This document shows positions 18,422 through 32,659 of a stretch of DNA of 64,000 nt, piece after piece (the first letter of the stretch is position 1; every line of letters starts with the position of its first letter). The notes under the pieces are model-generated. The model had not been told where the DNA came from, did not search any database, and saw only the letters and a program-made list of their open reading frames with translations. Source of the stretch: Amycolatopsis sp. 195334CR (GTDB lineage: Bacteria; Actinomycetota; Actinomycetes; Mycobacteriales; Pseudonocardiaceae); NCBI RefSeq assembly GCF_017309385.1, contig NZ_JAFJMJ010000001.1, positions 1,178,001 through 1,242,000 of the forward strand. Reading direction: 5' to 3'. Made by a program: the position numbers and the translations under genes.

Positions 18422-19831
18422 TCACCGCAGCGGAGCGGCGGCTCGATCCGTAGCCCAGGGCTTGACCTCTTCCACCAGCTTCGCCACCGCCAGCACCAAG
18501 TCATCCGAGTGCCGCGGCCCCACGATCTGCAACCCCACCGGCAACCCCGCGGCCGTGAACCCGATCGGCACGCTGATAGCCGGCTGCTGAGTCAAGTTGA
18601 ACGGATAAGTGAACCGCGTCCACTCCGGCCAAGTCCGGTAAGCGCTCCCCGGCGGCACATCGTGCCCAGCCTCGAAGGGCGAGATCGGCATCATCGGCGT
18701 GATCAGCACATCGTGCCGCAGGTGGAACTCACCCATGTGAATCCCCAACGCCGCCCGTACCGCGCTCGCCTCCAGGTAGTCGCTCGCCGAGAAGGTGTGC
18801 CCGTGCTCCCAGACCCGCCGCAGCCCCTGGTCGATCAGCTCCTCCGAACCCGCCGGGAACGTGTCGAGCCACTTCGCCGCCCCCGTCGACCACAGCACAT
18901 CGAAGGCATCCAACGGATCCGCGAACCCCGGGTCCGTCTCCTCGACCCGCAACCCCGCCTCGTTCAGCGCCGCCACCACCGACAGCGTGATCCGCGCGAT
19001 CTCCGGATCCACGTCCACGTAACCCAGATTCGCCGAGTACGCCGCATTCACCCCGCGCACGTCCCGCCGCACGGCCTCCCGGTACGAACTCGCCGGCGGC
19101 GCCAGAGCCGAAGGATCACGGTGATCCGGCAGCGCGAGCACATCCAGCAACAACGCCACGTCGTCCACCGAACGCGCCATCGGACCCGCGTGCCCCAACG
19201 GCCCGAACGGACTCGCCGGGAACAACGGGATCCGCCCGTGCGTCGGCTTGAACCCGACGATTCCGCAGAACGAAGCCGGAATCCGCACCGACCCGCCACC
19301 ATCGGTACCGACCGACAGCTCCCCCATGCCCGCCGCCACGGCCGCCGCGCTGCCACCGCTGGACCCACCCGCGGTCAGCGCGGGGTTCCACGGGTTGCGC
19401 GTGATGCCGTTCAACGTGTTGTCCGTGACGGCCTTCCAGCCCAGCTCCGGCGTGGTCGTCTTGCCGAGCAGCACCAGCCCGTGCTCACGCAGCCGCGCGG
19501 TGACCGGGCTGTCCACCTCCCACGGACCGGCCGGGTCGATGCACCGCGAACCCCGCTGCGTCGGCCAGCCCTGGCTGAGGAACATGTCCTTGATCGACGT
19601 CGGCACCCCGTCCAGCCAGCCGATCGGATGGCCCTCGCGCCACCGCTGCTCGGCCAGCTTCGCCTGCTCCAGCGCGGAGTCGGCGTCGACGAGGCAGTAG
19701 GCGTTGAGCTCGCCGTCCCGCTCGGCGATCGCGTCGAGTGAAGCTTGCGTCGCCTCCACCGGCGACAGCTCCCCGGACCCGTAGGCCGCGACGAGCTCAC
19801 TGGCCGTCAGCAGGGTCCCCGACTCGTTCAT
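18422..19831 (-). CDS. Amidase signature family hydrolase
   Basis: A 469-residue amidase that hydrolyses a C-N amide bond. The Ser-cisSer-Lys triad of the family is intact: Lys81 in TSIKD, cis-Ser157 in GGSSGGS, nucleophile Ser181 in GTDGGGSVRIP, with the normal 24-residue serine spacing. GatA is unlikely because no gatB or gatC is near. The gene starts eight bases after the 2-hydroxyacid dehydrogenase stop, so the two form one unit transcribed from the operator region at 20848. It probably releases ammonia or an amine from an amide substrate of the GntR-regulated pathway. Confidence 0.93.
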   Translation of the reverse strand: MNESGTLLTASELVAAYGSGELSPVEATQASLDAIAERDGELNAYCLVDADSALEQAKLAEQRWREGHPIGWLDGVPTSIKDMFLSQGWPTQRGSRCIDPAGPWEVDSPVTARLREHGLVLLGKTTTPELGWKAVTDNTLNGITRNPWNPALTAGGSSGGSAAAVAAGMGELSVGTDGGGSVRIPASFCGIVGFKPTHGRIPLFPASPFGPLGHAGPMARSVDDVALLLDVLALPDHRDPSALAPPASSYREAVRRDVRGVNAAYSANLGYVDVDPEIARITLSVVAALNEAGLRVEETDPGFADPLDAFDVLWSTGAAKWLDTFPAGSEELIDQGLRRVWEHGHTFSASDYLEASAVRAALGIHMGEFHLRHDVLITPMMPISPFEAGHDVPPGSAYRTWPEWTRFTYPFNLTQQPAISVPIGFTAAGLPVGLQIVGPRHSDDLVLAVAKLVEEVKPWATDRAAAPLR

Positions 19832-19839
19832 GGTCCTCC

Positions 19840-20829
19840 TCAGTTGCTGCCTGACGGCACGTAGCCCAATCCCTTGTCCACGACATTACGAAGCGGCTGC
19901 CCGGTGCGCCACCGCTCGAAGTTCGCGGCGAACACCTCGACCAGCGTGTTCCGCCAGCCGATGAAGTCCCCGGACATGTGCGGTGAGATCAGCACGTTCT
20001 CCATGGTCCACAGTGGACTGTCCGAGGGCAGCGGCTCGGTGTCGAACACGTCGAGCGCGGCACCGGCCGGGCGGCCGTCGCGCAGCGCGGCGACCAGGTC
20101 GCCGGTCACCACCAGCTCGCCCCGGCCGACGTTGACGAACCGCGAACCTGGCTTCATCGCGGCGAAGGCGCGCGCGTCGAACATGCCCTTGGTCTGCTCG
20201 GTCAGCGGCGCCACCGCGATCACGTAGTCGTAGTCGCCGAGGTGCGTGGTCAGCTCGGCCGACGCGTGCACCACGCCGAAGTCGGGATCGGACTCGCGCG
20301 CCGTGCGCCCGGCACCGGCGACGGACAGCCCGGCGGCGCGCAGCAGGCGCGCGATCGACCGGCCGATCGGCCCGGTGCCGACCACCAGCGCCCGGCGGCC
20401 AGCGACCCGCTCGGTCTCGCGGTGCAGCCAGGTCCGCTCCTGCTGCAACCGCCGCGAGCGCGCGAAGTCCTTGGCGAAGGCGAGCACCACGCCCAGCACG
20501 TACTCGGCGATGGCGTCGTCGAAGACACCGCGCGAGTTTGTCAGCACCACGTCGCTGTCGCGCAGCCCGGGGAACAGCACCGGGTCGACGCCCGCGCTCG
20601 CGATGTGCAGCCAGCGCAACCGATCCGCGGCCGCCCACGCACCGGGGACGGCGGTGGACAGGAAGTCGTAGACGAACAGGATGTCAGCGCCGTGTAACGC
20701 CTTCTTTAAACCCGCCTCGTCGGTGTAACGCACCGACGCCACCTGCTCGATGCTGTCCATGTCCGGGGGGTGCTGGTCGCCGCACAGCACCGCCAACACC
20801 GGGGATTCCGTGCCGATCACCGTTGACAC
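19840..20829 (-). CDS. D-isomer-specific 2-hydroxyacid dehydrogenase
   Basis: A 329-residue NAD(P)-linked dehydrogenase interconverting a 2-hydroxy and a 2-oxo acid. The cofactor fold is VVGTGPIGRSIARLLRAAG, the active-site Arg lies in NVGRGELV, the Glu in DVFDTEPLP and the His in ISPHMSG, the usual order in this family. The start is uncertain: GTG at 20829 gives a sensible N-terminus, while the longest frame would begin inside the operator. No ribosome site is seen, so the message may be leaderless. It faces the first isomerase-like gene across the GATTGTCAACAATC site and is probably repressed by the GntR protein. Confidence 0.9.
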   Translation of the reverse strand: MSTVIGTESPVLAVLCGDQHPPDMDSIEQVASVRYTDEAGLKKALHGADILFVYDFLSTAVPGAWAAADRLRWLHIASAGVDPVLFPGLRDSDVVLTNSRGVFDDAIAEYVLGVVLAFAKDFARSRRLQQERTWLHRETERVAGRRALVVGTGPIGRSIARLLRAAGLSVAGAGRTARESDPDFGVVHASAELTTHLGDYDYVIAVAPLTEQTKGMFDARAFAAMKPGSRFVNVGRGELVVTGDLVAALRDGRPAGAALDVFDTEPLPSDSPLWTMENVLISPHMSGDFIGWRNTLVEVFAANFERWRTGQPLRNVVDKGLGYVPSGSN

Positions 20830-20847
20830 GGTATGAGCCGGTCGTAT

Positions 20848-20861
20848 GATTGTCAACAATC
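20848..20861. promoter_or_regulatory. GntR operator candidate 1 (GATTGTCAACAATC)
   Basis: Perfect 14-bp palindrome with a CA centre between the divergent 2-hydroxyacid dehydrogenase and first isomerase-like gene. Two further copies occur at 21675 and 27323, each in a promoter region of this locus. The TTGT-NN-ACAA symmetry fits FCD-type GntR dimers. Confidence 0.75.
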
Positions 20862-20920
20862 CGAGGAGCCACCCCGGAGGCTCTCTGCATTCCTGAAGAC
20901 GTCACCGCGGAGGCTAGGCC

Positions 20921-21661
20921 TTGGATTTCCAGTTGCCTGTGTTCGATGGCCCGCTCGCCCAGCGGGGCATCGGCGTGATCGCGCCGTTCGACCTCGCGCT
21001 CGAGCGCGAGTTGTGGCGCTGGGTGCCGATGGAGGTCTCCCTCCACCTGGCGCGCACCCCGTACGAGCCGGTCCCGGTGAGCATGGAGATGGCGCAACTC
21101 GTCAGTGACAGCAAGCACCTCGCGGCCGCCACCCGTGACGTGCTTCACGTGGAACCAGAGGTTGTCGCGTACCTCTGCACGTCGGGCAGCTTCGTCAACG
21201 GCATCGACTACGAGCGCTCGTTGTGCAAGGCGATCTGCGACGCCGGGGCGCCGGACGCGGTGACCACCTCGGGCGCGCTCGCCGAGGTGCTGCACCGCCT
21301 CGACCTGCACAAAGTCTCGGTGCTGACGCCGTACGACCAGGACCTGACCGGGAAGCTGCACGACTTCCTGGCCGAACTGGACGTGAAAACGGTGTCCAGT
21401 GACCACCTCGGACTCGGTGGCGGCATCTGGAAGGTGAGCTACCGGACCATCGCCGAGCGCATCCTCGCCGCCGACCACTCCGAGGCCGAAGCGGTGTTCG
21501 TCAGCTGCACCAACCTGCCGACCTTCGACCTGATCGAGCCGCTGGAGGCGGCGCTCGGCAAGCCGGTGCTGACCGCGAACCAGCTGACCATGTGGGCCTG
21601 CCTGATGCGGATGGGCCTGCCGCTCGTCGGTCCCGGGAAGTGGTTGCGTGACGTTTCGTAG
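20921..21661 (+). CDS. Asp/Glu racemase / maleate cis-trans isomerase family protein, paralogue 1
   Basis: A 246-residue protein of the superfamily that includes maleate isomerase, arylmalonate decarboxylase and hydantoin/Asp/Glu racemase. Two catalytic-type cysteines are present: Cys86 in LCTSGSF and Cys196 in VSCTNLPTF, as in maleate isomerase where one attacks the double bond. Start is TTG at 20921 with CGGAGG upstream. It lies directly downstream of operator 1 and is followed by a second paralogue. It may isomerise a cis-enedioate or racemise an acid released by the amidase; the substrate is unknown. Confidence 0.85.
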   Translation: MDFQLPVFDGPLAQRGIGVIAPFDLALERELWRWVPMEVSLHLARTPYEPVPVSMEMAQLVSDSKHLAAATRDVLHVEPEVVAYLCTSGSFVNGIDYERSLCKAICDAGAPDAVTTSGALAEVLHRLDLHKVSVLTPYDQDLTGKLHDFLAELDVKTVSSDHLGLGGGIWKVSYRTIAERILAADHSEAEAVFVSCTNLPTFDLIEPLEAALGKPVLTANQLTMWACLMRMGLPLVGPGKWLRDVS

Positions 21662-21674
21662 CGTGGTTCGTTAG

Positions 21675-21688
21675 GATTGTTGACAATC
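21675..21688. promoter_or_regulatory. GntR operator candidate 2 (GATTGTTGACAATC)
   Basis: Perfect 14-bp palindrome with a TG centre in the 45-bp gap between the two isomerase-like genes, just ahead of the second paralogue and the GntR gene. It implies an internal, autoregulated promoter or roadblock. Confidence 0.75.
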
Positions 21689-21706
21689 TGCAGGAGGTGC
21701 TCAGGC

Positions 21707-22438
21707 TTGACCACGATCGGCTTCATCTACCCCGACCACGCGGCCGAGGACGACTACCCGCTCGCCGAGCGCCTCCTCGGGCCGGAGTTCCGGCTCCCGG
21801 TCGAGCACATCTACGGCACGGACCTGCACGCCGTGCCCGAGTTGCTCGACCTCGGCAGCCCCGAACGCCTCAAGGAAGGCGCCGGTCTGCTGGCGAAGCA
21901 CGAACCGGACGCGGTGATCTGGGCGTGCACCAGCGGCAGCTTCGTCTACGGCTGGGAAGGCGCGCGCAAGCAGGCCGACCAGCTCGCCGAGGCCGCCGGA
22001 GTGCCGTCGACCAGCACCTCCTTCGCGTTCGTCGAGGCGGCCAGGGCGCTCGAGGTGCGGAAGGTGGCCGTCGCGGCCAGCTACCCCGACGACGTGGCGC
22101 GGCTGTTCGTCGAATTCCTGGCCGCGGGCGGGGTCGAGGTGCTCGCGATGTCCAGTGCGGACATCGACACCGCGGCCGAGGTCGGCGAGCTGAGCCCGGA
22201 GGTGGTGATCGAGCTGGCGGTCTCGCACGACCACCCGGAGGCCGACGCCGTGCTCGTGCCCGACACCGCGATGCGCACGCTCGGCGTGCTCGGCGCCATC
22301 GAAAACCGGCTCGGAAAGCCGGTTCTGACCGCGAACCAGGTGACCATCTGGGAGGGTCTCCGGCAGGCCGGCGTCTCGGTGGCGTCCGGCGAGCTGGGAG
22401 AACTGTTCACGAGAACGGTCCGGGAAAAGGGAAACTGA
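21707..22438 (+). CDS. Asp/Glu racemase / maleate isomerase family protein, paralogue 2 lacking one cysteine
   Basis: A 243-residue relative of the preceding protein. The first active-site cysteine is kept (Cys74 in ACTSGSF), but the second is replaced: AVLVPDTAMRT stands where paralogue 1 has AVFVSCTNLPT, putting Asp186 at the cysteine position. The C-terminal GKPVLTANQVTIWE is conserved in both. One-cysteine members of this fold include decarboxylases, so a change in chemistry or a pseudo-subunit role is possible. Start is TTG at 21707 with AGGAGGTG upstream. The stop is one base before the GntR start. Confidence 0.82.
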   Translation: MTTIGFIYPDHAAEDDYPLAERLLGPEFRLPVEHIYGTDLHAVPELLDLGSPERLKEGAGLLAKHEPDAVIWACTSGSFVYGWEGARKQADQLAEAAGVPSTSTSFAFVEAARALEVRKVAVAASYPDDVARLFVEFLAAGGVEVLAMSSADIDTAAEVGELSPEVVIELAVSHDHPEADAVLVPDTAMRTLGVLGAIENRLGKPVLTANQVTIWEGLRQAGVSVASGELGELFTRTVREKGN

Positions 22439-22439
22439 C

Positions 22440-23108
22440 ATGCCGCTGGCCGACATCGAACCGGTGAGCCGGGAGTCCACCGCGGGCATCATCGCGCGGC
22501 AGCTCCGCGACGCGATCATGACCGGCGCGCTGCCACCGGGCACGCAGCTGGGCGAGACGGAGCTGGCGTCGCGGTTCCAGGTCTCGCGGGGACCGCTGCG
22601 CGAGGCAATGCAGCGGCTGGTGTCCGAGGGGCTGCTGCGCAGCGAGCGGCACCGCGGGCTCTTCGTGATCGATCTCGAGCCGGACGACGTGTACGACATC
22701 TACGTCGCGCGGGCCGCGATCGAACGGGCGGCGGCGCTGCGGATCATGCGCGGTGACCGGGAGAAGGCCGCCGCCGCGCTGGACGAGATCGTGCGCGCGA
22801 TGGCCGCGGCCGCCGACGAGGACGACCCGACCGCCCTGTCCGACGCCGATCTGCGCTTCCACGAGGTGCTGGTCGCCGAGTCCGGCAGCCGCAGGCTGAT
22901 GCGGATGACGCAGACGCTGCTGATCGAGACGCGCATGTGCCTGTCCATGCTGCAGCAGACCTACCAGCGGGTCGAGGAACGGGTCGACGAGCACAACCAG
23001 CTGATCGACGCCATCCGCGCGGGTGACGAGGAGTCGGTGCTGAAGCAGCTGGAGGCGCACATGGAGGACGCCATCCAGCGGTTGCTGCCGGGGACCTCAT
23101 TGCACTGA
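22440..23108 (+). CDS. GntR family regulator, FCD type (probable master of the locus)
   Basis: A 222-residue regulator: winged helix at about residues 12-78 (STAGIIARQLRDAIMTG, then FQVSRGPLREAMQRLVSEGLL) and an FCD domain with the metal or carboxylate pocket residues in DADLRFHEVLV and EHNQLIDAI. It follows the second isomerase-like gene by one base, so it is autoregulated if operator 2 is its site. Three palindromes of one sequence in five promoters around it make it the best candidate for locus-wide repression, relieved by a pathway acid. Confidence 0.9.
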   Translation: MPLADIEPVSRESTAGIIARQLRDAIMTGALPPGTQLGETELASRFQVSRGPLREAMQRLVSEGLLRSERHRGLFVIDLEPDDVYDIYVARAAIERAAALRIMRGDREKAAAALDEIVRAMAAAADEDDPTALSDADLRFHEVLVAESGSRRLMRMTQTLLIETRMCLSMLQQTYQRVEERVDEHNQLIDAIRAGDEESVLKQLEAHMEDAIQRLLPGTSLH

Positions 23109-23177
23109 CGAAAGTAAGGGGCGGGTGGCGACGGTCGGCCACTGCGCCGGCCCCACCCCGGTTTCTAACGTCGTCAC

Positions 23178-24662
23178 GTGACCAAATCGAAGCTGCTCTG
23201 GTGGTCCGGCGTCGTCCTGCTGGCGCTGTCCGTGCACACCAACTGGGCCAGTCCCCTCGCCGCGTGGTTGTTCGCCGTTCCGCTGCTGTTGTTCACCGCG
23301 CCGCGCGGGCTGCCCAAGGTGCTCGGCGCGCTCGCGATCGGCACGACCGTCTGGCTCGCGGCGACCAGCCTGCTCTTCGTCCCGGCGGCGCTGCTCGCGT
23401 TCGGCGCGCTCACGGTGTTGCAGTGGCTCGCCTTCGTCGCGCACAAGCTGCTTTCCCCGCGCCTGCCCGGTTTTCTCGGCACGCTGGTCTTCCCGGCCAC
23501 GCTCGCGGGCGCCGAGTACCTGTTCGCGCTGGTCATCCGCTTCGGTGACTACGGCGCGCTCGGCTCGACCCAGCACGCCAACCTCCCGCTGCTGCAACTC
23601 GCGTCGGTCACCGGCGTGTACGGGATCACCTTCCTCATGGGCTGGTTCGCTTCGACGGCCGTGTGGGCGTGGGAAACCCGCAACGCGCGCAGGTTCGTGG
23701 TGTACGGACTGGTGCTGGCGGCGGTGTTCGCCGCCGGGGCCGCGCGGCTCACCTTCTTCGCACCCACCGAGAAGTCCGTGCGCGTCGCCGCGGTGAGCCC
23801 GAGCCACACCGCCGACGAACGCTCCGGCGACGCGCTTTCCACAATGGACATCGAGTACTGGCGGGCGGCCGAGGTGGCGACCGCCGAGCCCGGTGCCATC
23901 CGCGCGGCCTTCGCGCCGGTCACCGACGACCTGCTCGAACAAACCCGCACCCAGGCGCGGGCGGGCGCGAAGATCGTGCTCTGGCCGGAAACCCACGCGC
24001 GGGTGCTGGAACGCGACCACCGCGAACTGCTCGACAGCGCGGCTGTGATCGCGCGGGAGACCGGTGCCTACGTCAACCTGGCCTACGCGATGTACACCGG
24101 CGAGGCGCCGAACATCCGCAACCTCAGCACCATGATCACCCCGGCCGGGGAGATCGCCTGGACCTACGACAAGAGCCGGCCGACCCCGATGGAGCCGATG
24201 ACGCCCGGTCCCGGTGAGGTGCCCACTGTGGACACTCCGTACGGCAGGATCGCCGGCGTCATCTGCTACGACGCCGACTTCCCGCACCTCATGCGCCAGG
24301 CCGCGGACAAGGGCGCGGACCTGCTGCTGGTCCCGGCGAATGACTGGGCCGGGTTCTCCGAGCTGCACGCGGAGAAGGCCGTCTTCCGCGACATCGAGTA
24401 CGGCTACTCGATGCTGCGCAACTCCTCACACGGCCTCTCCACGGCGACCGACGCGCAGGGCCGGGTGCTCGCGAGCACGGACTGGTTCCGCACGGACCAG
24501 CAAACCCTCGTCGCGAACCTGCCGCTGCAGCCGCGCACCAGCACGGTCTACAGCACCGTCGGGGACGTCTTCGCCTGGCTGTGCCTGGCGGGTGCGGCGG
24601 CCCTCGCCCTCACCGCCCTGCGCCGCTCCCCGGCAACCGAGGCAGCTCACGCCACACGATGA
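23178..24662 (+). CDS. Apolipoprotein N-acyltransferase-like membrane nitrilase
   Basis: A 494-residue protein with about six N-terminal membrane segments followed by a carbon-nitrogen hydrolase domain, the layout of Lnt, which N-acylates lipoproteins at the outer face of the membrane. The Glu-Lys-Cys triad is present: Glu271 in LWPETHAR, Lys332 in TYDKSRP and Cys363 in VICYDADF. A last hydrophobic segment closes the protein. GTG start at 23178 without a ribosome site suggests a leaderless message. It lacks the GntR palindrome although it lies among regulated genes, so it is probably an independent envelope gene; a membrane-bound amidase/nitrilase of other function cannot be excluded. Confidence 0.85.
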   Translation: MTKSKLLWWSGVVLLALSVHTNWASPLAAWLFAVPLLLFTAPRGLPKVLGALAIGTTVWLAATSLLFVPAALLAFGALTVLQWLAFVAHKLLSPRLPGFLGTLVFPATLAGAEYLFALVIRFGDYGALGSTQHANLPLLQLASVTGVYGITFLMGWFASTAVWAWETRNARRFVVYGLVLAAVFAAGAARLTFFAPTEKSVRVAAVSPSHTADERSGDALSTMDIEYWRAAEVATAEPGAIRAAFAPVTDDLLEQTRTQARAGAKIVLWPETHARVLERDHRELLDSAAVIARETGAYVNLAYAMYTGEAPNIRNLSTMITPAGEIAWTYDKSRPTPMEPMTPGPGEVPTVDTPYGRIAGVICYDADFPHLMRQAADKGADLLLVPANDWAGFSELHAEKAVFRDIEYGYSMLRNSSHGLSTATDAQGRVLASTDWFRTDQQTLVANLPLQPRTSTVYSTVGDVFAWLCLAGAAALALTALRRSPATEAAHATR

Positions 24663-24689
24663 AGGTGGCTTTCCTGCGCAGCGCCAGGC

Positions 24690-24744
24690 GCAGTGAATGT
24701 GTGGCTTTCACAGCGGAATCCGCCGTGAAAGCCACATTCACTGC
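24690..24744. terminator. Long hairpin at convergent gene ends
   Basis: Arms of 22 and 20 bases (core GCAGTGAATGTGGCTTTCAC, the left arm with a two-base GT insertion) enclose a smaller stem GCGGA-A-TCCGC. The element lies between the Lnt-like stop and the convergent dehydrogenase stop, so it can act in both directions. The same core recurs at 61555. Confidence 0.7.
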
Positions 24745-24749
24745 ATCGC

Positions 24750-25804
<1,055 letters not shown>

Positions 25805-25808
<4 letters not shown>

Positions 25809-27268
25809 AGGCTCACCGCGATGTACTTGGTCTCCAGGAACTCGTCGATGCCGAACTTGCCGCCCTCGCGGCCCAGCCCGGAGGCCTTGATGCCGCCGAA
25901 GGGCGCGGCCGGGTTGGACACCAGGCCCTGGTTGAGCCCGACCATGCCGGACTCCAACTGCTCCGAAACCCGCAGCGCGCGCTTGATGTCGCTGGTGTAG
26001 AGGTAGCTGACCAGGCCGTACTCGGTGTCGTTGGCCGCGGCGAGCACCTCCTCTTCGGTGTCGAAGAGGTAGATCGGCGCCACCGGGCCGAAGATCTCCT
26101 CGGTCGCCATGTCCGCGTCCAGCGGCACCTCGGTCAGCACGGTCGCCTGGTAGAAGTTGCCCGGACCGTCCACAGTGGCCCCACCGGTGAGCACCTTGGC
26201 GCCGCGCTCGACGGCGTCGCGGACCAGGCCACCGACCTTGTCCACCGCGGCCTGGTCGATCAGCGGGCCGACCACCACGCCGTCCTCGGTGCCGCGGCCC
26301 ATCGGCAGCGCGGCCATCTTCTCGGTCAGCCTGCGGCCGAACTCGGCGGCCACGCCCTTCTGCACGTAGATCCGGTTGGCCGCGGTGCACGCCTCCCCGA
26401 TGTTGCGCATCTTCGCCATCATCGCGCCTTCGAGCGCGGCGTCCAGGTCGGCGTCGTCGAAGACGATGAACGGCGCGTTGCCGCCCAGCTCCATCGAGGT
26501 CCGCAGCACCTTGTCGGCGCACTGCTCCAGCAACTTCCGGCCGACCGCGGTGGACCCGGTGAAGGACAGCTTGCGCGCCCGGCCGTCGCGGATCAGCGGC
26601 TCCATCACGCCACCGGAGTCGCTGGTGGTCAGCACGTTGAGCACGCCTTCGGGCAGCCCGGCCTCGGCCAGGATCTCGGCCAGCGCCAGCATCGACAGCG
26701 GGGTCTGCGCGGCCGGCTTGATCACCATGGTGCAGCCGGCCGCGATCGCCGGGCCGATCTTGCGCGTGCCCATCGCCATCGGGAAGTTCCACGGGGTGAT
26801 CAGCAACGACACCCCGACCGGCTGCTTGGCCACCAGGAACCGGCCGGATCCGTTGGGCGCCACCGAGTAGTCCCCGCCGATCCGGACCGCCTCCTCGGCG
26901 AACCACCGGAAGAACTCGGCCGCGTAGGCGATCTCGCCACGTGATTCGGCCAGCGGCTTGCCCATCTCCAACGTCATCAGCAGCGCGAGTTCGTCGGTGC
27001 GGTCCACCAGCGCCTGGTACGCGCGCCGCAGGATCTCGCCCCGCTCGCGCGGTGCCGTCTTCGCCCACTCGGCCTGCGCGGCCGCCGCCGCGTCGAGCGC
27101 CGCCATGCCGTCCGCCGGCGAGGCGTCGGCCACCTCGCACAGCGCCTCACCGGTGGACGGATCGAGCACCGGGAAGGTCCGGCCACCTTCCGCGGCGGTC
27201 CACTTCCCGCCGATGAAAAGTTCCTTCGCGACCGTGTCGACGACCCCGGCCTCGCTGATCTCGCCCAT
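25805..27268 (-). CDS. Succinate-semialdehyde dehydrogenase-like aldehyde dehydrogenase
   Basis: A 487-residue aldehyde dehydrogenase of the SSADH (GabD) type. Catalytic Glu260 (MELGGNAP) and Cys294 (GEACTAANR) are 34 residues apart, and TPWNFPMAMGTRKIGPA is the conserved oxyanion/cofactor region. ATG at 27268 is preferred to an upstream in-frame ATG because AGGAGCGG lies eight bases before it. It is divergent from the class-III aminotransferase with operator 3 between them, a classical amino-acid-to-semialdehyde-to-acid pair. It may act on succinate semialdehyde or a homologue. Confidence 0.93.
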
Positions 27269-27322
27269 CACTACCGCTCCTGTCCGCATTCATTGCGCCC
27301 GGTCCGAGGGCCATGCTATGCA

Positions 27323-27336
27323 TATTGTCAACAATC
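27323..27336. promoter_or_regulatory. GntR operator candidate 3 (TATTGTCAACAATC)
   Basis: Third copy of the palindrome, matching the other sites at 13 of 14 positions with its CA centre, in the 102-bp gap between the divergent aldehyde dehydrogenase and aminotransferase genes. Confidence 0.75.
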
Positions 27337-27370
27337 GACAAGAGACCCCGTCCGAAGGAGCACCGCTGCC

Positions 27371-28627
27371 ATGGCCCAGCTCTCCCCCCTGCTCAAGCAG
27401 GCCACCCCGGTCGTCGTTGACCACGGCGAGGGCACCTATCTGTTCGACAGCGAAGGCAGGCGGCACCTGGACTTCACCGCCGGCATCGGCGTCACCAGCA
27501 CCGGTCACTGCCACCCCAAGGTGGTCGCCGCCGCCCAGGAACAGATCGGCAAGCTGATCCACGGGCAGTACACCACCGTGATGCACAAGCCGCTGCTCGA
27601 ACTGACCGAGCGCCTCGGCGGCGTACTGCCGTCCGGACTGGACTCCCTGTTCTTCGCCAACTCCGGCAGCGAGGCGGTCGAGGCGGCGCTGCGGCTGACC
27701 CGGCAGGCGACCGCGCGGCCGAACGTGATCGTGTTCCAGGGCGGGTTCCACGGCCGGACCGTCGCCGCCGCGTCGATGACCACCTCGGGCACCCGGTTCA
27801 GCGCGGGCTTCTCGCCGCTGATGTCCGGCGTGCACGTGGCCCCGTTCCCCTACGCCTACCACTACGGCTGGGACGAGAAGACCGCGACGAAGTTCGCGCT
27901 GCGCGAGCTGGACTACCTGTTCGCCACGGTCACCGCGCCGAACGAGGTCGCCGCGTTCTTCGTCGAGCCGGTCCTCGGTGAGGGCGGGTACGTGCCCGCG
28001 AACACCGAGTTCCTGGCCGGGCTGCGCGAGCGCGCCGACAAGCACGGCATCCTGCTGGTGCTCGACGAGGTGCAGACCGGCTTCGGCCGCACCGGCAAGT
28101 TCTGGGGCCACGACCACTTCGACGTGCGCCCGGACGTCGTGCTGATCGCGAAGGGCCTGGCCAGCGGCTTCCCGCTGTCGGGCATCGCCGCGTCGCAGGA
28201 ACTGATGTCGAAGGCGTGGCCGGGTTCGCAGGGCGGGACCTACGGCGGCAACGCGGTTTCGTGCGCGGCCGCCTGCGCCACGCTCGACGTGATCAAGGAA
28301 GAGGGGCTCGTCGCCAACGCCGCCGAGCGCGGCACGCAGCTGCTCGACGGCGCTCGCTTGATCGGGGACAAGAACGCCGCGATCGGGGACGTGCGTGGGC
28401 TCGGGCTGCTGGTCGGCTCGGAGTTCACCACCGCGGACGGCGAGCCGGACACGGTCACCGCGCAGGCCGCGCAGAAGGCCGCCGCCGAGCGCGGACTGCT
28501 GCTGCTCACCTGCGGTGCCTACATGAACGTGGTCCGGATGATCCCGCCGCTGGTGGTCACCGCCGAGCAGATCGACGAGGCGCTGGGCATCTGGGCCGAG
28601 GTCGTCGACACCGTCACCAAGAACTGA
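27371..28627 (+). CDS. Class-III omega-aminotransferase (GABA-aminotransferase-like)
   Basis: A 418-residue PLP enzyme transferring an amino group from an omega-amino acid or amine. The cofactor lysine is Lys261 in VLIAKGLASGFPLSG, the PLP-nitrogen aspartate is Asp232 in LDEVQTGFGRTG, and NSGSEAVEAALRLTR is the phosphate loop. ATG at 27371 has GAAGGAG upstream. It begins a two-gene unit with the DUF3830 gene, opposite the SSADH-like gene; the pair would convert an omega-amino acid to a dicarboxylate. Ornithine or acetylornithine aminotransferase is less likely because no arginine genes are near. Confidence 0.92.
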   Translation: MAQLSPLLKQATPVVVDHGEGTYLFDSEGRRHLDFTAGIGVTSTGHCHPKVVAAAQEQIGKLIHGQYTTVMHKPLLELTERLGGVLPSGLDSLFFANSGSEAVEAALRLTRQATARPNVIVFQGGFHGRTVAAASMTTSGTRFSAGFSPLMSGVHVAPFPYAYHYGWDEKTATKFALRELDYLFATVTAPNEVAAFFVEPVLGEGGYVPANTEFLAGLRERADKHGILLVLDEVQTGFGRTGKFWGHDHFDVRPDVVLIAKGLASGFPLSGIAASQELMSKAWPGSQGGTYGGNAVSCAAACATLDVIKEEGLVANAAERGTQLLDGARLIGDKNAAIGDVRGLGLLVGSEFTTADGEPDTVTAQAAQKAAAERGLLLLTCGAYMNVVRMIPPLVVTAEQIDEALGIWAEVVDTVTKN

Positions 28628-28640
28628 GGGAGAGCCTTCG

Positions 28641-29144
28641 TTGGCCCGCTACATCACCATCACGCTGGACAAGCGCGGCGTGTCCTGCCGCGCCCGGCTG
28701 CTCGACGCCGAGGCACCGCGCACCTGCGAGGCCGTGTGGAACGCGCTGCCGCAGAGCGGTTCGGCCTACCACGCGAAGTACGCGCGCAACGAGGTCTACA
28801 CGCTCGTGCCGCCGTTCGCCCAGCCCAAGCCGGGCCGGGAGAACCCGACCGTCACGCCGATCCCGGGTGACGTCGTGTACTTCGGCTTCGAGGCATGGGA
28901 GATCGGCAATCCCGCGTACGGCTACGACGAGGGCAGCGAAGCCCACAGCGACCAGGGCGCCACGGACCTCGCCATCTTCTACGGCCGCAACAACCTGCTG
29001 ATCAACGGCGACGCCGGCTGGGTGCCCGGCAACGTGTTCGCCACGATCGAGGAGGGGCTGGCGGAGATGGCGGCGGCGTCGCAGGACCTGTGGCTCCGCG
29101 GCGTCGAGGGCGAGACGCTTTCCTTCGCCCGCGCGGAAAACTGA
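28641..29144 (+). CDS. DUF3830 family protein (cyclophilin-like fold)
   Basis: A 167-residue cytoplasmic protein of the DUF3830 family, whose members have a cyclophilin-like barrel and no settled function. Family stretches visible include the opening ITITLDKRGVSCRARLLD and the central GDVVYFGFEAWEIG, and the late NLLINGDAGWVPGNVFATI. TTG start at 28641 follows GGGAG. It is thirteen bases after the aminotransferase stop and thus in the GntR-regulated set. The genomic link argues for a role with small acids or amides, perhaps as an isomerase/hydrolase or binding protein; that is inference. Confidence 0.8.
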   Translation: MARYITITLDKRGVSCRARLLDAEAPRTCEAVWNALPQSGSAYHAKYARNEVYTLVPPFAQPKPGRENPTVTPIPGDVVYFGFEAWEIGNPAYGYDEGSEAHSDQGATDLAIFYGRNNLLINGDAGWVPGNVFATIEEGLAEMAAASQDLWLRGVEGETLSFARAEN

Positions 29145-29702: not shown

Positions 29703-31103
29703 ATGAACGACAGCGGTTCCGGGGGTTTCGCACAGCGCCTCGCCGACATCGTCGGCCAGGCCAACCTGCTCACCGGCGACGCCGTGGGCGAGGACTACGC
29801 CCACGACGAGTGCCTCACCGTGGAGCCGGCGAAACCCGCCTACGTGGTCAAACCGGCGACCGCCGAAGAAACCGCGGAACTGCTCAAGGCCGCGGGCGAG
29901 CACCGGGTTCCGGTGACCGCCCGCGGCTCGGGCAGCGGCCTGTCCGGCGCGGCCAGGCCGCGGCCCGACGGCCTGCTCATCTCCTTCGAGCGGATGAACC
30001 AGGTGCTCGAAATCGACGCCGACAACCACGTCGCGGTGGTGCAACCCGGCGTCACGCTGGCCGAACTCGACGAGAAGACCGCCGCGGCCGGCCTGTCCTA
30101 CACCGTCTACCCCGGTGAGCTGAGCGCGAGCGTCGGCGGCAACGTCGGCACCAACGCGGGCGGCATGCGCGCGGTGAAGTACGGCGTCACCCGGCACAAC
30201 GTGCTGGGCCTGCAGGCCGCGCTGCCCAGCGGTGAGCTGATCCGCACCGGCGGCAAGACCACCAAGACCTCCACCGGCTACGACCTCACCCAGCTGATCA
30301 TCGGCTCCGAGGGCACGCTCGCGCTGGCCACCGAGGTGACCGTCCGGCTGCACCCGCGCCTGGGCCACGGCGCCACCGCGCTCGCCCCGTTCGCCGATCT
30401 CGACCAGGTGATGCGCGCGGTGCCGAAGATCATCGCCAGCGGGCTCGACCCGCACATCCTGGAGTACATCGACAACCTGACCATGGCCGCGATCGTCTAC
30501 AAGGAACAGTTGTCGCTCGGCGTGCCGGACGAGGTCAGGGACTCCTCGCAGGCGTACCTGGTGGTGTCGCTGGAAAACCGCGACAACGACCGGCTGCACG
30601 CCGACATGGAGCAGCTCGGCGAACTGCTGGCCGAACTGGGTGCCGCCGACGTCTACGTGCTGGAGGGACCGGCCGCCCGCAAGCTGATCGAGGCGCGGGA
30701 GAAGGCGTTCTGGACGGCGAAGTCGGTCGGCGCGGACGACGTGATCGACGTGGTCATCCCGCGCGCGGAGATGCCCGCCTTCCTGGCCAAGGTGCGGGAG
30801 CTGGCCACCGCCGCCGAGTCCGGCGCGGTCGGCTGCGGGCACGCCGGGGACGGCAACGTCCACTTGGGAATCTTCCAGAAGGACCCGGCGAAGCGGCGCG
30901 CGCTGCTGCATGAGATCTTCGCGGCGGGCATGGCCGCCGGCGGGTCGATCTCCGGCGAGCACGGCATCGGCCACGCCAAGAAGGAGCACTTCCTCGAACT
31001 GGAGGACCCGGCGAAGATCGAGCTGATGCGGCGGATCAAGCTGTCCTTCGACCCCCTGGGCATCCTCAACCCGGGCGTTCTCTTCGACCAGGAGTCACAG
31101 TGA
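29703..31103 (+). CDS. FAD-linked oxidase, GlcD/D-lactate dehydrogenase type
   Basis: A 466-residue flavoprotein of the VAO/PCMH fold that oxidises a 2-hydroxy acid to a 2-oxo acid. FAD-binding elements are TARGSGSGLSGAARP and SVGGNVGTNAGGMRAVKYG; the C-terminal CGHAGDGNVH and SGEHGIGHAKK are the substrate/metal motifs of glycolate and lactate oxidases. The ATG follows within a short leader. Its stop overlaps the start of the ThDP enzyme gene by GTGA, which suggests that the 2-oxo acid produced is passed to that enzyme for decarboxylation or ligation. No iron-sulfur partner (GlcF) is present. Confidence 0.92.
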   Translation: MNDSGSGGFAQRLADIVGQANLLTGDAVGEDYAHDECLTVEPAKPAYVVKPATAEETAELLKAAGEHRVPVTARGSGSGLSGAARPRPDGLLISFERMNQVLEIDADNHVAVVQPGVTLAELDEKTAAAGLSYTVYPGELSASVGGNVGTNAGGMRAVKYGVTRHNVLGLQAALPSGELIRTGGKTTKTSTGYDLTQLIIGSEGTLALATEVTVRLHPRLGHGATALAPFADLDQVMRAVPKIIASGLDPHILEYIDNLTMAAIVYKEQLSLGVPDEVRDSSQAYLVVSLENRDNDRLHADMEQLGELLAELGAADVYVLEGPAARKLIEAREKAFWTAKSVGADDVIDVVIPRAEMPAFLAKVRELATAAESGAVGCGHAGDGNVHLGIFQKDPAKRRALLHEIFAAGMAAGGSISGEHGIGHAKKEHFLELEDPAKIELMRRIKLSFDPLGILNPGVLFDQESQ

Positions 31104-32659
31104 GCATGAACGGCGCGCAGTCCCTCATCCGCACCCTCGTCGAGGCGGGGGTGGAAGTGTGCTTCGCCAATCCCGGCACCTCGGAGATGCACTTCGTGGC
31201 CGCGCTGGACTCGGTGCCGGAGATGCGCGGCGTGCTCGCGTTGTTCGAGGGCGCGGTGACCGGTGCCGCGGACGGCTACGCCCGCATCGCCGGCCGCCCG
31301 GCGGCGACCCTGCTGCACCTGGGCCCAGGCCTGGCCAACGGCATGGCGAACCTGCACAACGCGAAGCGCGCGCACACGCCGGTGGTCAACATCATCGGTG
31401 ACCACGCGATCGACCACAAGAAGTACGACGCCCCGCTGGAATCCGACATCGAGGCGCTCACCGGCACGCTGAACGGCTGGTCGCGGCGTTCGGACCACAC
31501 CGCCGACGTCGGCGCGGACGCGGCCGCCGCGGTCGCCGCCGCGCAGGACGCGCCGGGCCGGATCGCCAACCTGATCCTGCCCGCCGACGTTTCCTGGGGC
31601 GAGGGCGGGAAAACCTGCCCGCCGGTACCCGCGCGCGTGCCGAAGGAAGTGGACGAGACCACCGTCAAGCAGATCGCCGAAGTGCTGCGCACCGGGGAAT
31701 CCGCGGCGCTGCTGATCGGTGGCGCGGCCTGCCGGGAGACCGGACTGCGGGCGGCGAGCCGGATCGCCGCGGCGACCGGGGCCAAGCCGTTCGCCGAGGT
31801 CTTCCCCGCCCGGATCGAACGCGGTGCCGGGCTGCCGACCATCGAGCGGCTCGGGTACCTGGCCGAGCACGTCGAGTACCAGTTGCAGGGCGTCAAGCAC
31901 CTGATCGTGGCCGGGACCAAGGCGCCGGTCTCGTTCTTCGCCTACCCGGGCAAGGCCAGCGACCTGGTGCCCGAGGGCGCGCAGGTGCACACCCTGGCCG
32001 GGCTGGACGCGGACGTGGTCGGCGCCTTGCAGGACCTCGCCGACCTGGTCGCCGCGGACACCGAACCCGTGCTGCAGGAGGCACACCGGCCCGCGTTGCC
32101 GAGCGGTCCGCTGACCCCGCAGAACTGGGTCGAGGTGATCGGGGCCCTGCTGCCGGACAACGCGATCATCGCCGACGAGGCCAACACCTCCGGTGTGCTG
32201 CTGCCGGGCGCGACCGCCGGTGCGCCCCGGCACGACGTGCTGACGCTGACCGGTGGCGCGATCGGCCAGGGCATCCCGGTGGCCACCGGCGCGGCGATCG
32301 CGGCGCCCGACCGCCCGGTGATCAACCTGCAGTCCGACGGCAGCGCGTTGTACACGATCTCGGCGCTGTGGACGCAGGCGCGGGAGAAGTCCAACGTCAC
32401 CACGGTGTTGTTGAACAACCGGGCCTACGCGATCCTGCGGATGGAGCTGCAGCGGGTCGGCGCGGACGGTTCCGGGCCGAAGGCGGCCGAGTTGCTCGAC
32501 CTGTCGGGGCCGGACATGGACTTCGCGAAGATCGCCGAAGGCATGGGCGTCCCGGCTCGCCGGGCGACGACGGCCGAGGAGCTGGCGGACGCGTTCGCGT
32601 GGGCGCTGGCCGAGCCGGGTCCGCACCTGATCGACACGATCGTGCCCCCGCTGGTCTGA
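31100..32659 (+). CDS. Thiamine diphosphate enzyme, acetolactate synthase / benzoylformate decarboxylase-like
   Basis: A 519-residue ThDP enzyme. The catalytic glutamate is Glu50 in LALFEGAVTGAADGYAR, the PP-domain motif is the variant SDGSALYTISALWTQ followed by NNRAYAI. The protein is shorter than biosynthetic acetolactate synthases and has no partner small subunit, so a catabolic lyase or decarboxylase is more likely. It is coupled to the FAD-linked oxidase gene. The GTG at 31100 gives the overlap; an ATG six bases in is the alternative start. Compare the second ThDP enzyme at 7513. Confidence 0.88.
   Translation: MSMNGAQSLIRTLVEAGVEVCFANPGTSEMHFVAALDSVPEMRGVLALFEGAVTGAADGYARIAGRPAATLLHLGPGLANGMANLHNAKRAHTPVVNIIGDHAIDHKKYDAPLESDIEALTGTLNGWSRRSDHTADVGADAAAAVAAAQDAPGRIANLILPADVSWGEGGKTCPPVPARVPKEVDETTVKQIAEVLRTGESAALLIGGAACRETGLRAASRIAAATGAKPFAEVFPARIERGAGLPTIERLGYLAEHVEYQLQGVKHLIVAGTKAPVSFFAYPGKASDLVPEGAQVHTLAGLDADVVGALQDLADLVAADTEPVLQEAHRPALPSGPLTPQNWVEVIGALLPDNAIIADEANTSGVLLPGATAGAPRHDVLTLTGGAIGQGIPVATGAAIAAPDRPVINLQSDGSALYTISALWTQAREKSNVTTVLLNNRAYAILRMELQRVGADGSGPKAAELLDLSGPDMDFAKIAEGMGVPARRATTAEELADAFAWALAEPGPHLIDTIVPPLV

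Follow-up and report, generated by a model that had tools for sequence, protein, structure and literature searches.

A palindrome-linked, GntR-controlled DUF3830 locus of Amycolatopsis sp. 195334CR and its probable role in the breakdown of ectoine or 5-hydroxyectoine

What does a bacterium break down with a gene set that unites an amidase, a D-2-hydroxyacid dehydrogenase (2HADH), two isomerase-like proteins (isoA and isoB), a tartrate-type dehydrogenase (TTC), an SSADH-like aldehyde dehydrogenase, a class-III aminotransferase (AT3) and a DUF3830 protein around a single GntR gene? The question is raised by positions 18422-29144 of a 64,000-nt window (the whole stretch of DNA that was analysed, to which coordinates refer unless a contig or locus is named) from the 9.93-Mb genome of Amycolatopsis sp. 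195334CR. A preliminary description of the window had seen here one catabolic locus of unknown substrate, whose enzymes suggested that amides or amino acids were turned into a dicarboxylate. Our study retains the single catabolic locus and replaces the broad substrate class with a probable one, ectoine or 5-hydroxyectoine (compounds that bacteria both produce against salt stress and consume), because genes for an ectoine transporter and for ectoine biosynthesis adjoin the locus in relatives. We consider it likely that the locus is a regulon, controlled by a GntR protein with an FCD domain, for the breakdown of one or both of these compounds without canonical EutB, EutD and EutE.

Gene content, conserved core and shared palindrome

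Conservation of the gene set was assessed in a sample of 150 genomes of the family and a sample of 394 genomes of the class. DUF3830 was present in 86 of the 150 family genomes and isoA (E<=1e-30) accompanied it in 85 of these, compared with 0 of the 64 other family genomes, a result against one of the two refuting conditions named in the preliminary description, a lack of joint conservation. In a wider set of 42 loci, 41 gave at least one hit and 37 carried DUF3830 in its long form; the counts that follow refer to these 37 and exclude the remaining 5. The amidase was found in 34, 2HADH in 34, isoA in 33 and isoB in 34, with all four together in 32, and GntR was found in 24, AT3 in 19, SSADH in 15 and TTC in 3. 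Since the first four stand beside DUF3830 in most of the wider loci, the conserved core consists of the amidase, 2HADH, isoA, isoB and DUF3830, and AT3, SSADH and TTC are its partners; in this the core differs from the gene list first drawn up. Among the closest relatives, taken as the best 80 of 334 loci (Amycolatopsis, Prauserella, Saccharomonospora and kin), AT3 occurred in 79, SSADH in 76 and TTC in 63, together with GntR in 64, isoB in 61, 2HADH in 55, isoA in 52 and the amidase in 48, counts which cover a 10-kb flank and in which some loci end at contig ends. A DUF3830 search on plasmids gave no match, and the family search also pointed to Haloferax volcanii and Deinobacterium chartae. 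A shorter, distant DUF3830 subfamily was also seen (L157:9388-10357, genus g252) and forms tandem triplets in some genomes.

The eight enzyme genes and the FCD-type GntR gene are arranged in five units (amidase/2HADH, isoA, isoB-GntR, tartrate dehydrogenase/SSADH and aminotransferase-DUF3830), which are served by three sites of a common palindrome. The pattern ATTGTNNACAAT occurs exactly at three positions in the window, its sole occurrences in the genome, and the reversed pattern has 0, in agreement with the five palindrome-sharing units around one GntR gene of the preliminary description. The looser TTGTNNACAA matched 38 genome sites against 27 for the reversed control and, among the 38, TTGTCAACAA or TTGTTGACAA (centres CA or TG) stood only at the three locus sites. 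In an analysis of the gaps between gene pairs up to about 580 bases apart, based upon 122 sequences that gave hits, the window among them, the site TTGT(CA/TG/CG)ACAA was present in 88/88 SSADH/AT3 gaps, 62/72 2HADH/isoA gaps and 54/86 isoA/isoB gaps. The gaps, 58.8 kb in total, held 205 sites, and the other 2.3 Mb held 42. The consensus over 207 sites was ATTGTYRACAAT, and the palindrome was found in 88 of the 89 loci holding both GntR and DUF3830. Ten loci of genus g51, which we judge to be Streptomyces-like, had no GntR within the 20 kb examined and 0/10 had even TTGTNNACAA; an IclR-like gene is common to 9 of these 10 (Pfam IclR_C tested on one). By this association, the palindrome ATTGTYRACAAT is taken as the operator of this GntR protein, which carries both the GntR and the FCD domain and lacks an aminotransferase domain according to Pfam.

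Ten gene-sized open reading frames between 18422 and 29144 exceeded Pfam cut-offs; nine belong together (Table 1; Amidase, 2-Hacid_dh, Amdase twice, FCD with GntR, Iso_dh, Aldedh, Aminotran_3 and DUF3830) and include every enzyme that had been named beforehand. The tenth, an Lnt-like (apolipoprotein N-acyltransferase-like) gene at 23178-24662, had been left out of the earlier gene list; it lies inside the locus, occurs in 1/80 close and 0/41 wider relatives and is a passenger. Two listed frame starts, 20859 for 2HADH and 21677 for isoB, overlap palindromes and are probably not the true ones, so that translation more probably begins at internal positions, which by eye are GTG 20829 or 20820 for 2HADH and TTG 21707 for isoB. 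Downstream of the locus and adjoining it, positions 29703-32659 encode a GlcD-like FAD oxidase together with an enzyme of the ThDP type (PRK07586, 783 bits). These two were considered as pathway parts and rejected: the oxidase accompanies 59 of the 80 close loci and 1 of the 41 wider ones, the ThDP enzyme 71 and 0, and neither has an exact palindrome.

Table 1. Features of the locus in the 64,000-nt window.
Feature	Positions	Strand	Evidence
Amidase-signature enzyme, proposed N-acetyl hydrolase	18422..19831	-	Pfam Amidase 347 bits; closest solved structure aryl acylamidase
2HADH, D-2-hydroxyacid dehydrogenase family	19840..20859	-	Pfam 2-Hacid_dh
Palindrome ATTGTCAACAAT, putative operator 2HADH/isoA	20849..20860		Exact match
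isoA, AMDase/EutA-like, Cys86 and Cys196	20921..21661	+	Pfam Amdase; both Cys kept in 86/86
Palindrome ATTGTTGACAAT, putative operator isoA/isoB	21676..21687		Exact match
isoB, AMDase/EutA-like paralogue, Cys with Asp replacing second Cys	21707..22438	+	Pfam Amdase; Asp in 95/96
GntR regulator with FCD domain	22440..23108	+	Pfam GntR and FCD; occurs together with palindrome
TTC, tartrate/D-malate-type beta-decarboxylating dehydrogenase	24750..25808	-	TIGR02089 515.6 bits, cut-off 470.4; structure match 3flk
SSADH-like aldehyde dehydrogenase	25805..27289	-	Pfam Aldedh
Palindrome ATTGTCAACAAT, putative operator SSADH/AT3	27324..27335		Exact match; in 88/88 gaps of relatives
AT3, class-III aminotransferase	27371..28627	+	Pfam Aminotran_3; closest solved structures GABA aminotransferases
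DUF3830 protein, proposed to open the ring; cyclophilin-like fold predicted, close to McbB/KslB	28641..29144	+	PF12903 222.9 bits, cut-off 26

Ectoine transport and biosynthesis genes in relatives

The probable substrate is indicated by the neighbours of the core in other genomes. The importer of ectoine and hydroxyectoine is encoded divergently from DUF3830 in one relative (L147), with EhuB at 269.9 bits (cut-off 190.9) and EhuA at 354.7 bits (cut-off 345.4), and another locus (L209) holds EhuBCDA with the entire core and with GntR, TTC, SSADH and AT3. Within genus g51, ehuB lay no more than 6 kb from DUF3830 in all 20 DUF3830-bearing genomes. In an alignment with the Sinorhizobium meliloti EhuB protein, the Glu and Arg that contact ectoine there were kept in 21/21 distinct sequences, and the three box positions were aromatic in 21, 21 and 19 (23 rows, all EhuB, with two repeats counted once and 8 of the 21 not adjoining DUF3830).

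Co-occurrence points the same way. In the family sample, EhuB and DUF3830 were both present in 70 genomes, DUF3830 only in 16, EhuB only in 8 and neither in 56 (P 6e-18); in the class sample, restricted to long-form DUF3830 (54 of the 64 genomes with any match, short or distant forms being excluded), the same counts were 43, 11, 21 and 319 (P 3e-31); and the ectoine hydroxylase EctD (E<=1e-60) was matched in 85/86 DUF3830 genomes versus 18/64 others (P 1e-22), all three P values treating genomes as independent. With one genome per genus, the counts in the same order were 23/7/2/14 for EhuB (P 4e-5) and 28/2/6/10 for EctD (P 9e-5). Over its own cut-off, EctD was found in 80/86 DUF3830 genomes versus 17/64 others.

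The 21 class genomes with EhuB and no DUF3830 are also informative, 18 of which were taken (19 loci). EhuBCDA adjoins ectABC(D) in 4 of the 19. Within the 16-20 kb examined, twelve such loci of genus g51 also lack isoA and the amidase, with isoB kept in 10, 2HADH in 7 and none of the five core genes in 2. The joint absence of DUF3830, isoA and the amidase from these 12 loci looks as if the three worked on neighbouring steps. These g51 loci (L219-L230), in which EhuBCDA stands alone or is joined by isoB, 2HADH or both, constitute a natural experiment on core-gene dependence.

Genes of ectoine biosynthesis are linked as well. In two loci of one genus (L169 and L172), DUF3830 follows ectA-ectB-ectC-ectD after 21 and 27 bases, and the remaining core genes adjoin; EctA, B, C and D exceeded their cut-offs in L169, and EctC and EctD in L172. 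This arrangement would also suit a core that remodels cell-made ectoine or hydroxyectoine into another solute or signal, with no feeding involved, as would the EctD match in all but one of the 86 DUF3830 genomes and the likeness of the predicted DUF3830 fold to ring-forming enzymes. However, breakdown is indicated by the solute importer adjoining the core, by the enzymes of the GABA-aminotransferase-like, SSADH-like and tartrate-type classes (GABA being 4-aminobutyrate) that share this operator in close relatives, and by the local regulator, and we regard remodelling as very improbable. The window's genome itself carries ectABCD near C1:1796590. In several family genomes, EutB-like genes of the threonine-dehydratase family, below cut-off, lie ~3-17 kb from ectD, an example in the window's genome being G000:C1:1779812-1780732.

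Several observations weigh against a locus for ectoine or hydroxyectoine breakdown. EhuB over cut-off was found neither in the window's own genome (UehABC and TeaABC were not searched for) nor in 16 of the 86 DUF3830 genomes, and it occurs in 0 of the closest 80 of 334 loci. Phylogeny is considered in the one-per-genus tests only and not in the three smallest P values. The partners AT3, SSADH and TTC are found in only 19, 15 and 3 of the 37 wider loci. The ectABCD-DUF3830 order was seen in just 2 of the 123 loci searched, both of one genus, and such a position is odd for pure breakdown and invites a futile cycle. Against the EutA model TIGR02990, isoA and isoB scored 97.5 and 106.3 bits (cut-off 318) and are by this model relatives of EutA, not its orthologues. 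EutB-family homologues below cut-off occur in 98/100 genomes. Two further points concern the enzymes: the score of AT3 with an acetylornithine-type model, which is above those of GABA models, fits a route to aspartate (set out below), and a fold common to DUF3830 and the enzymes McbB and KslB shows no function.

The absence of EhuB over cut-off from the window's genome would mean that another importer is used, or that the locus acts on ectoine made by the cell itself. A rough call of reading frames showed no ectoine gene at the three TTGTCGACAA and two TTGTTAACAA sites of this genome. A possible importer of this organism is a ProP-like carrier (32% identity); upstream of it, one TTGTCGACAA site, L204:3723 (G000:C1:4586722), falls inside a helicase-like frame. 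The same absence would also fit a different substrate altogether, such as amides of GABA or beta-alanine, pantothenate or maleamate, with the Ehu-type transporter carrying something else; by family knowledge, the enzymes on their own might suit routes of this kind. We consider this unlikely, as the EhuB proteins of relatives exceed the cut-off with their contact residues kept, and both the ectABCD linkage and the EctD co-occurrence speak against it. Two specific candidates were rejected: pantothenate breakdown, in which the amidase, a beta-alanine aminotransferase and a tartrate-type dehydrogenase for dimethylmalate would have parts, leaves isoA/isoB and EhuB unaccounted for and found no support in a literature search, and the maleamate/pyridine routes of family knowledge have the same shortcoming.

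A tentative route and the order of its steps

If ectoine or 5-hydroxyectoine is the substrate, any route must account for the presence of 2HADH in a core from which the aminotransferase is often missing. In 5-hydroxyectoine, a beta-hydroxy alpha-amino acid, loss of water gives an enamine that hydrolysis turns into a 2-oxo acid without the need for a transaminase. The enzymes isoA/isoB and DUF3830 could thus dehydrate and open the tetrahydropyrimidine ring to give 4-acetamido-2-oxobutyrate, which 2HADH would convert to (R)-4-acetamido-2-hydroxybutyrate; the amidase would then release acetate to leave (R)-4-amino-2-hydroxybutyrate (2-hydroxy-GABA), AT3 and the SSADH-like enzyme would carry this to D-malate, and TTC would yield pyruvate and CO2. 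Drawn from the chemistry of the families, this sequence, which would bypass EutD by way of (R)-4-amino-2-hydroxybutyrate and D-malate, is the route that we favour; its exact steps are tentative and less likely than not to hold in full.

Both cysteines of the isomerase/racemase type are kept in every isoA sequence, and isoB has the first Cys in 91/96 and Asp at the second position in 95/96, so that it departs from the two-cysteine rule for isomerase/racemase members of the AMDase/maleate isomerase superfamily. TTC passes the equivalog cut-off for tartrate dehydrogenase. The predicted fold of DUF3830 lies near those of the Pictet-Spenglerases McbB and KslB, at 20 and 16% identity and with only the fold compared.

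An alternative entry would begin from ectoine itself. Loci that pair DUF3830 with an ELFV-type amino-acid dehydrogenase, 5 of the 37 wider ones (Pfam tested on one), could obtain 4-acetamido-2-oxobutyrate from N-gamma-acetyl-diaminobutyrate. A 2018 review describes a Halomonas hydrolase that forms this gamma isomer, seemingly not used by the deacetylase of that organism (PMC5924519). In L150, L151, L152, L153 and L184, DUF3830 adjoins an ELFV-type dehydrogenase, and carriers of the ProP, BCCT or Ehu kind are present; L184 and L153, the latter on a short contig, lack isoA/isoB.

The same substrate may alternatively be degraded in the canonical order, with DUF3830 in place of EutD, the amidase in place of EutE, AT3 as Atf and the SSADH-like enzyme as Ssd, L-aspartate as the product and isoA/isoB acting as EutA for hydroxyectoine. 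In keeping with this order, the canonical route ends with an acetylornithine-type aminotransferase (Atf) and an SSADH-related enzyme (PMC5924519). AT3 scored 424.5 bits with an acetylornithine-type model, isoA and isoB are EutA-related, and EutD/DoeA (TIGR02993) exceeded its cut-off in 0/150 and EutE (TIGR02994) in 0/100 family genomes. This order, however, leaves 2HADH (34/37 wider loci) and TTC without a role, and AT3 scored lower with diaminobutyrate aminotransferase models (268.2 bits) than with GABA models (375.5), its closest solved structures also being GABA aminotransferases; we hold the canonical order to be possible, with the balance of probability against it.

Taken to its full extent, the route through D-malate would be a second, EutD-independent 5-hydroxyectoine pathway, in which DUF3830, working with its Pictet-Spenglerase fold in the ring-opening direction, Cys/Cys isoA and Cys/Asp isoB produce 4-acetamido-2-oxobutyrate by dehydration and hydrolysis, with no PLP enzyme, followed by (R)-2-hydroxy-GABA and D-malate. 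It would be the main ectoine catabolism of the family and of the Streptomyces-like genus, missed because surveys searched with EutD. This larger proposal is speculative, and we advance it as doubtful. If the locus does serve ectoine breakdown, the EutD-free set, marked by DUF3830 in 86 of the 150 family genomes, would fill a gap on Gram-positive ectoine consumers, DUF3830 (with a solved structure and no assigned function) and the EutA-like pair would gain testable roles, and the GntR operator and inducer would become testable together. The preliminary recommendation of this locus as a good place to seek a function for DUF3830 is supported.

Comparison with known systems

The literature searched contained no mention of DUF3830 and nothing joining ectoine with this enzyme set. 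The solved-structure counterpart of DUF3830, 3kop from Arthrobacter sp. FB24, is titled by its fold alone and has no assigned function. McbB and KslB, amine-ring-building enzymes, differ in that their solved complexes hold tryptophan and their chains are longer, whereas the gene for DUF3830 belongs to a cluster concerned with a small solute.

Ectoine consumers were described as confined to Proteobacteria in the 2018 review, based on EutD searches (PMC5924519). A 2026 survey states that Gram-positive consumers had not been shown before, and predicts some by BLAST with EutD and EutB (PMC13188858). The locus is like the predicted Bacillota/Actinomycetota clusters of that survey in pointing to Gram-positive ectoine use, some cases having carriers of the EhuABCD, BCCT or MFS type; the Bacilli clusters have the order pucR-eutBCD-atf-abgB-thrA-adh (PMC13188858). 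The sections of the survey and of the 2018 review that were considered here make no mention of the DUF3830 gene set.

Some relatives may also open ectoine in the known way, since L143 encodes a EutD-like protein (416.5 bits, cut-off 613) together with 2HADH, DUF3830 and AT3, and weaker M24 relatives of EutD occur in 4/150 family genomes. The window's genome is among these, with one distant M24 protein away from the locus (222 bits against the same cut-off). Between the EutD-like peptidase and DUF3830, L143 also carries a class-I PLP enzyme (L143:6881-8134) that resembles MppQ, GntC and the aminotransferase domains of the MocR type.

The canonical cluster of Sinorhizobium, Ruegeria and Halomonas is given in the review as ehuABCD or uehABC, eutABCDE, ssd, atf and enuR (PMC5924519). 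The locus shares with it an ectoine transporter (in relatives), EutA-related proteins, a class-III aminotransferase, an SSADH-like enzyme and a regulator of the GntR superfamily. It differs in that none of the family genomes sampled had EutB, EutD or EutE over cut-off (EutB, TIGR02991, in 0/100), and in that DUF3830, the amidase, 2HADH, two EutA-like paralogues and a tartrate-type dehydrogenase are present instead. The canonical regulator EnuR is of the MocR/GabR type, in contrast to the FCD-GntR protein without an aminotransferase domain described here. As matches to the EutB, EutD, EutE and EutA models stayed below cut-off and the regulator is not of the EnuR type, the locus is by these comparisons not a member of the canonical ectoine system, but it resembles that system in its probable purpose and in enzyme classes.

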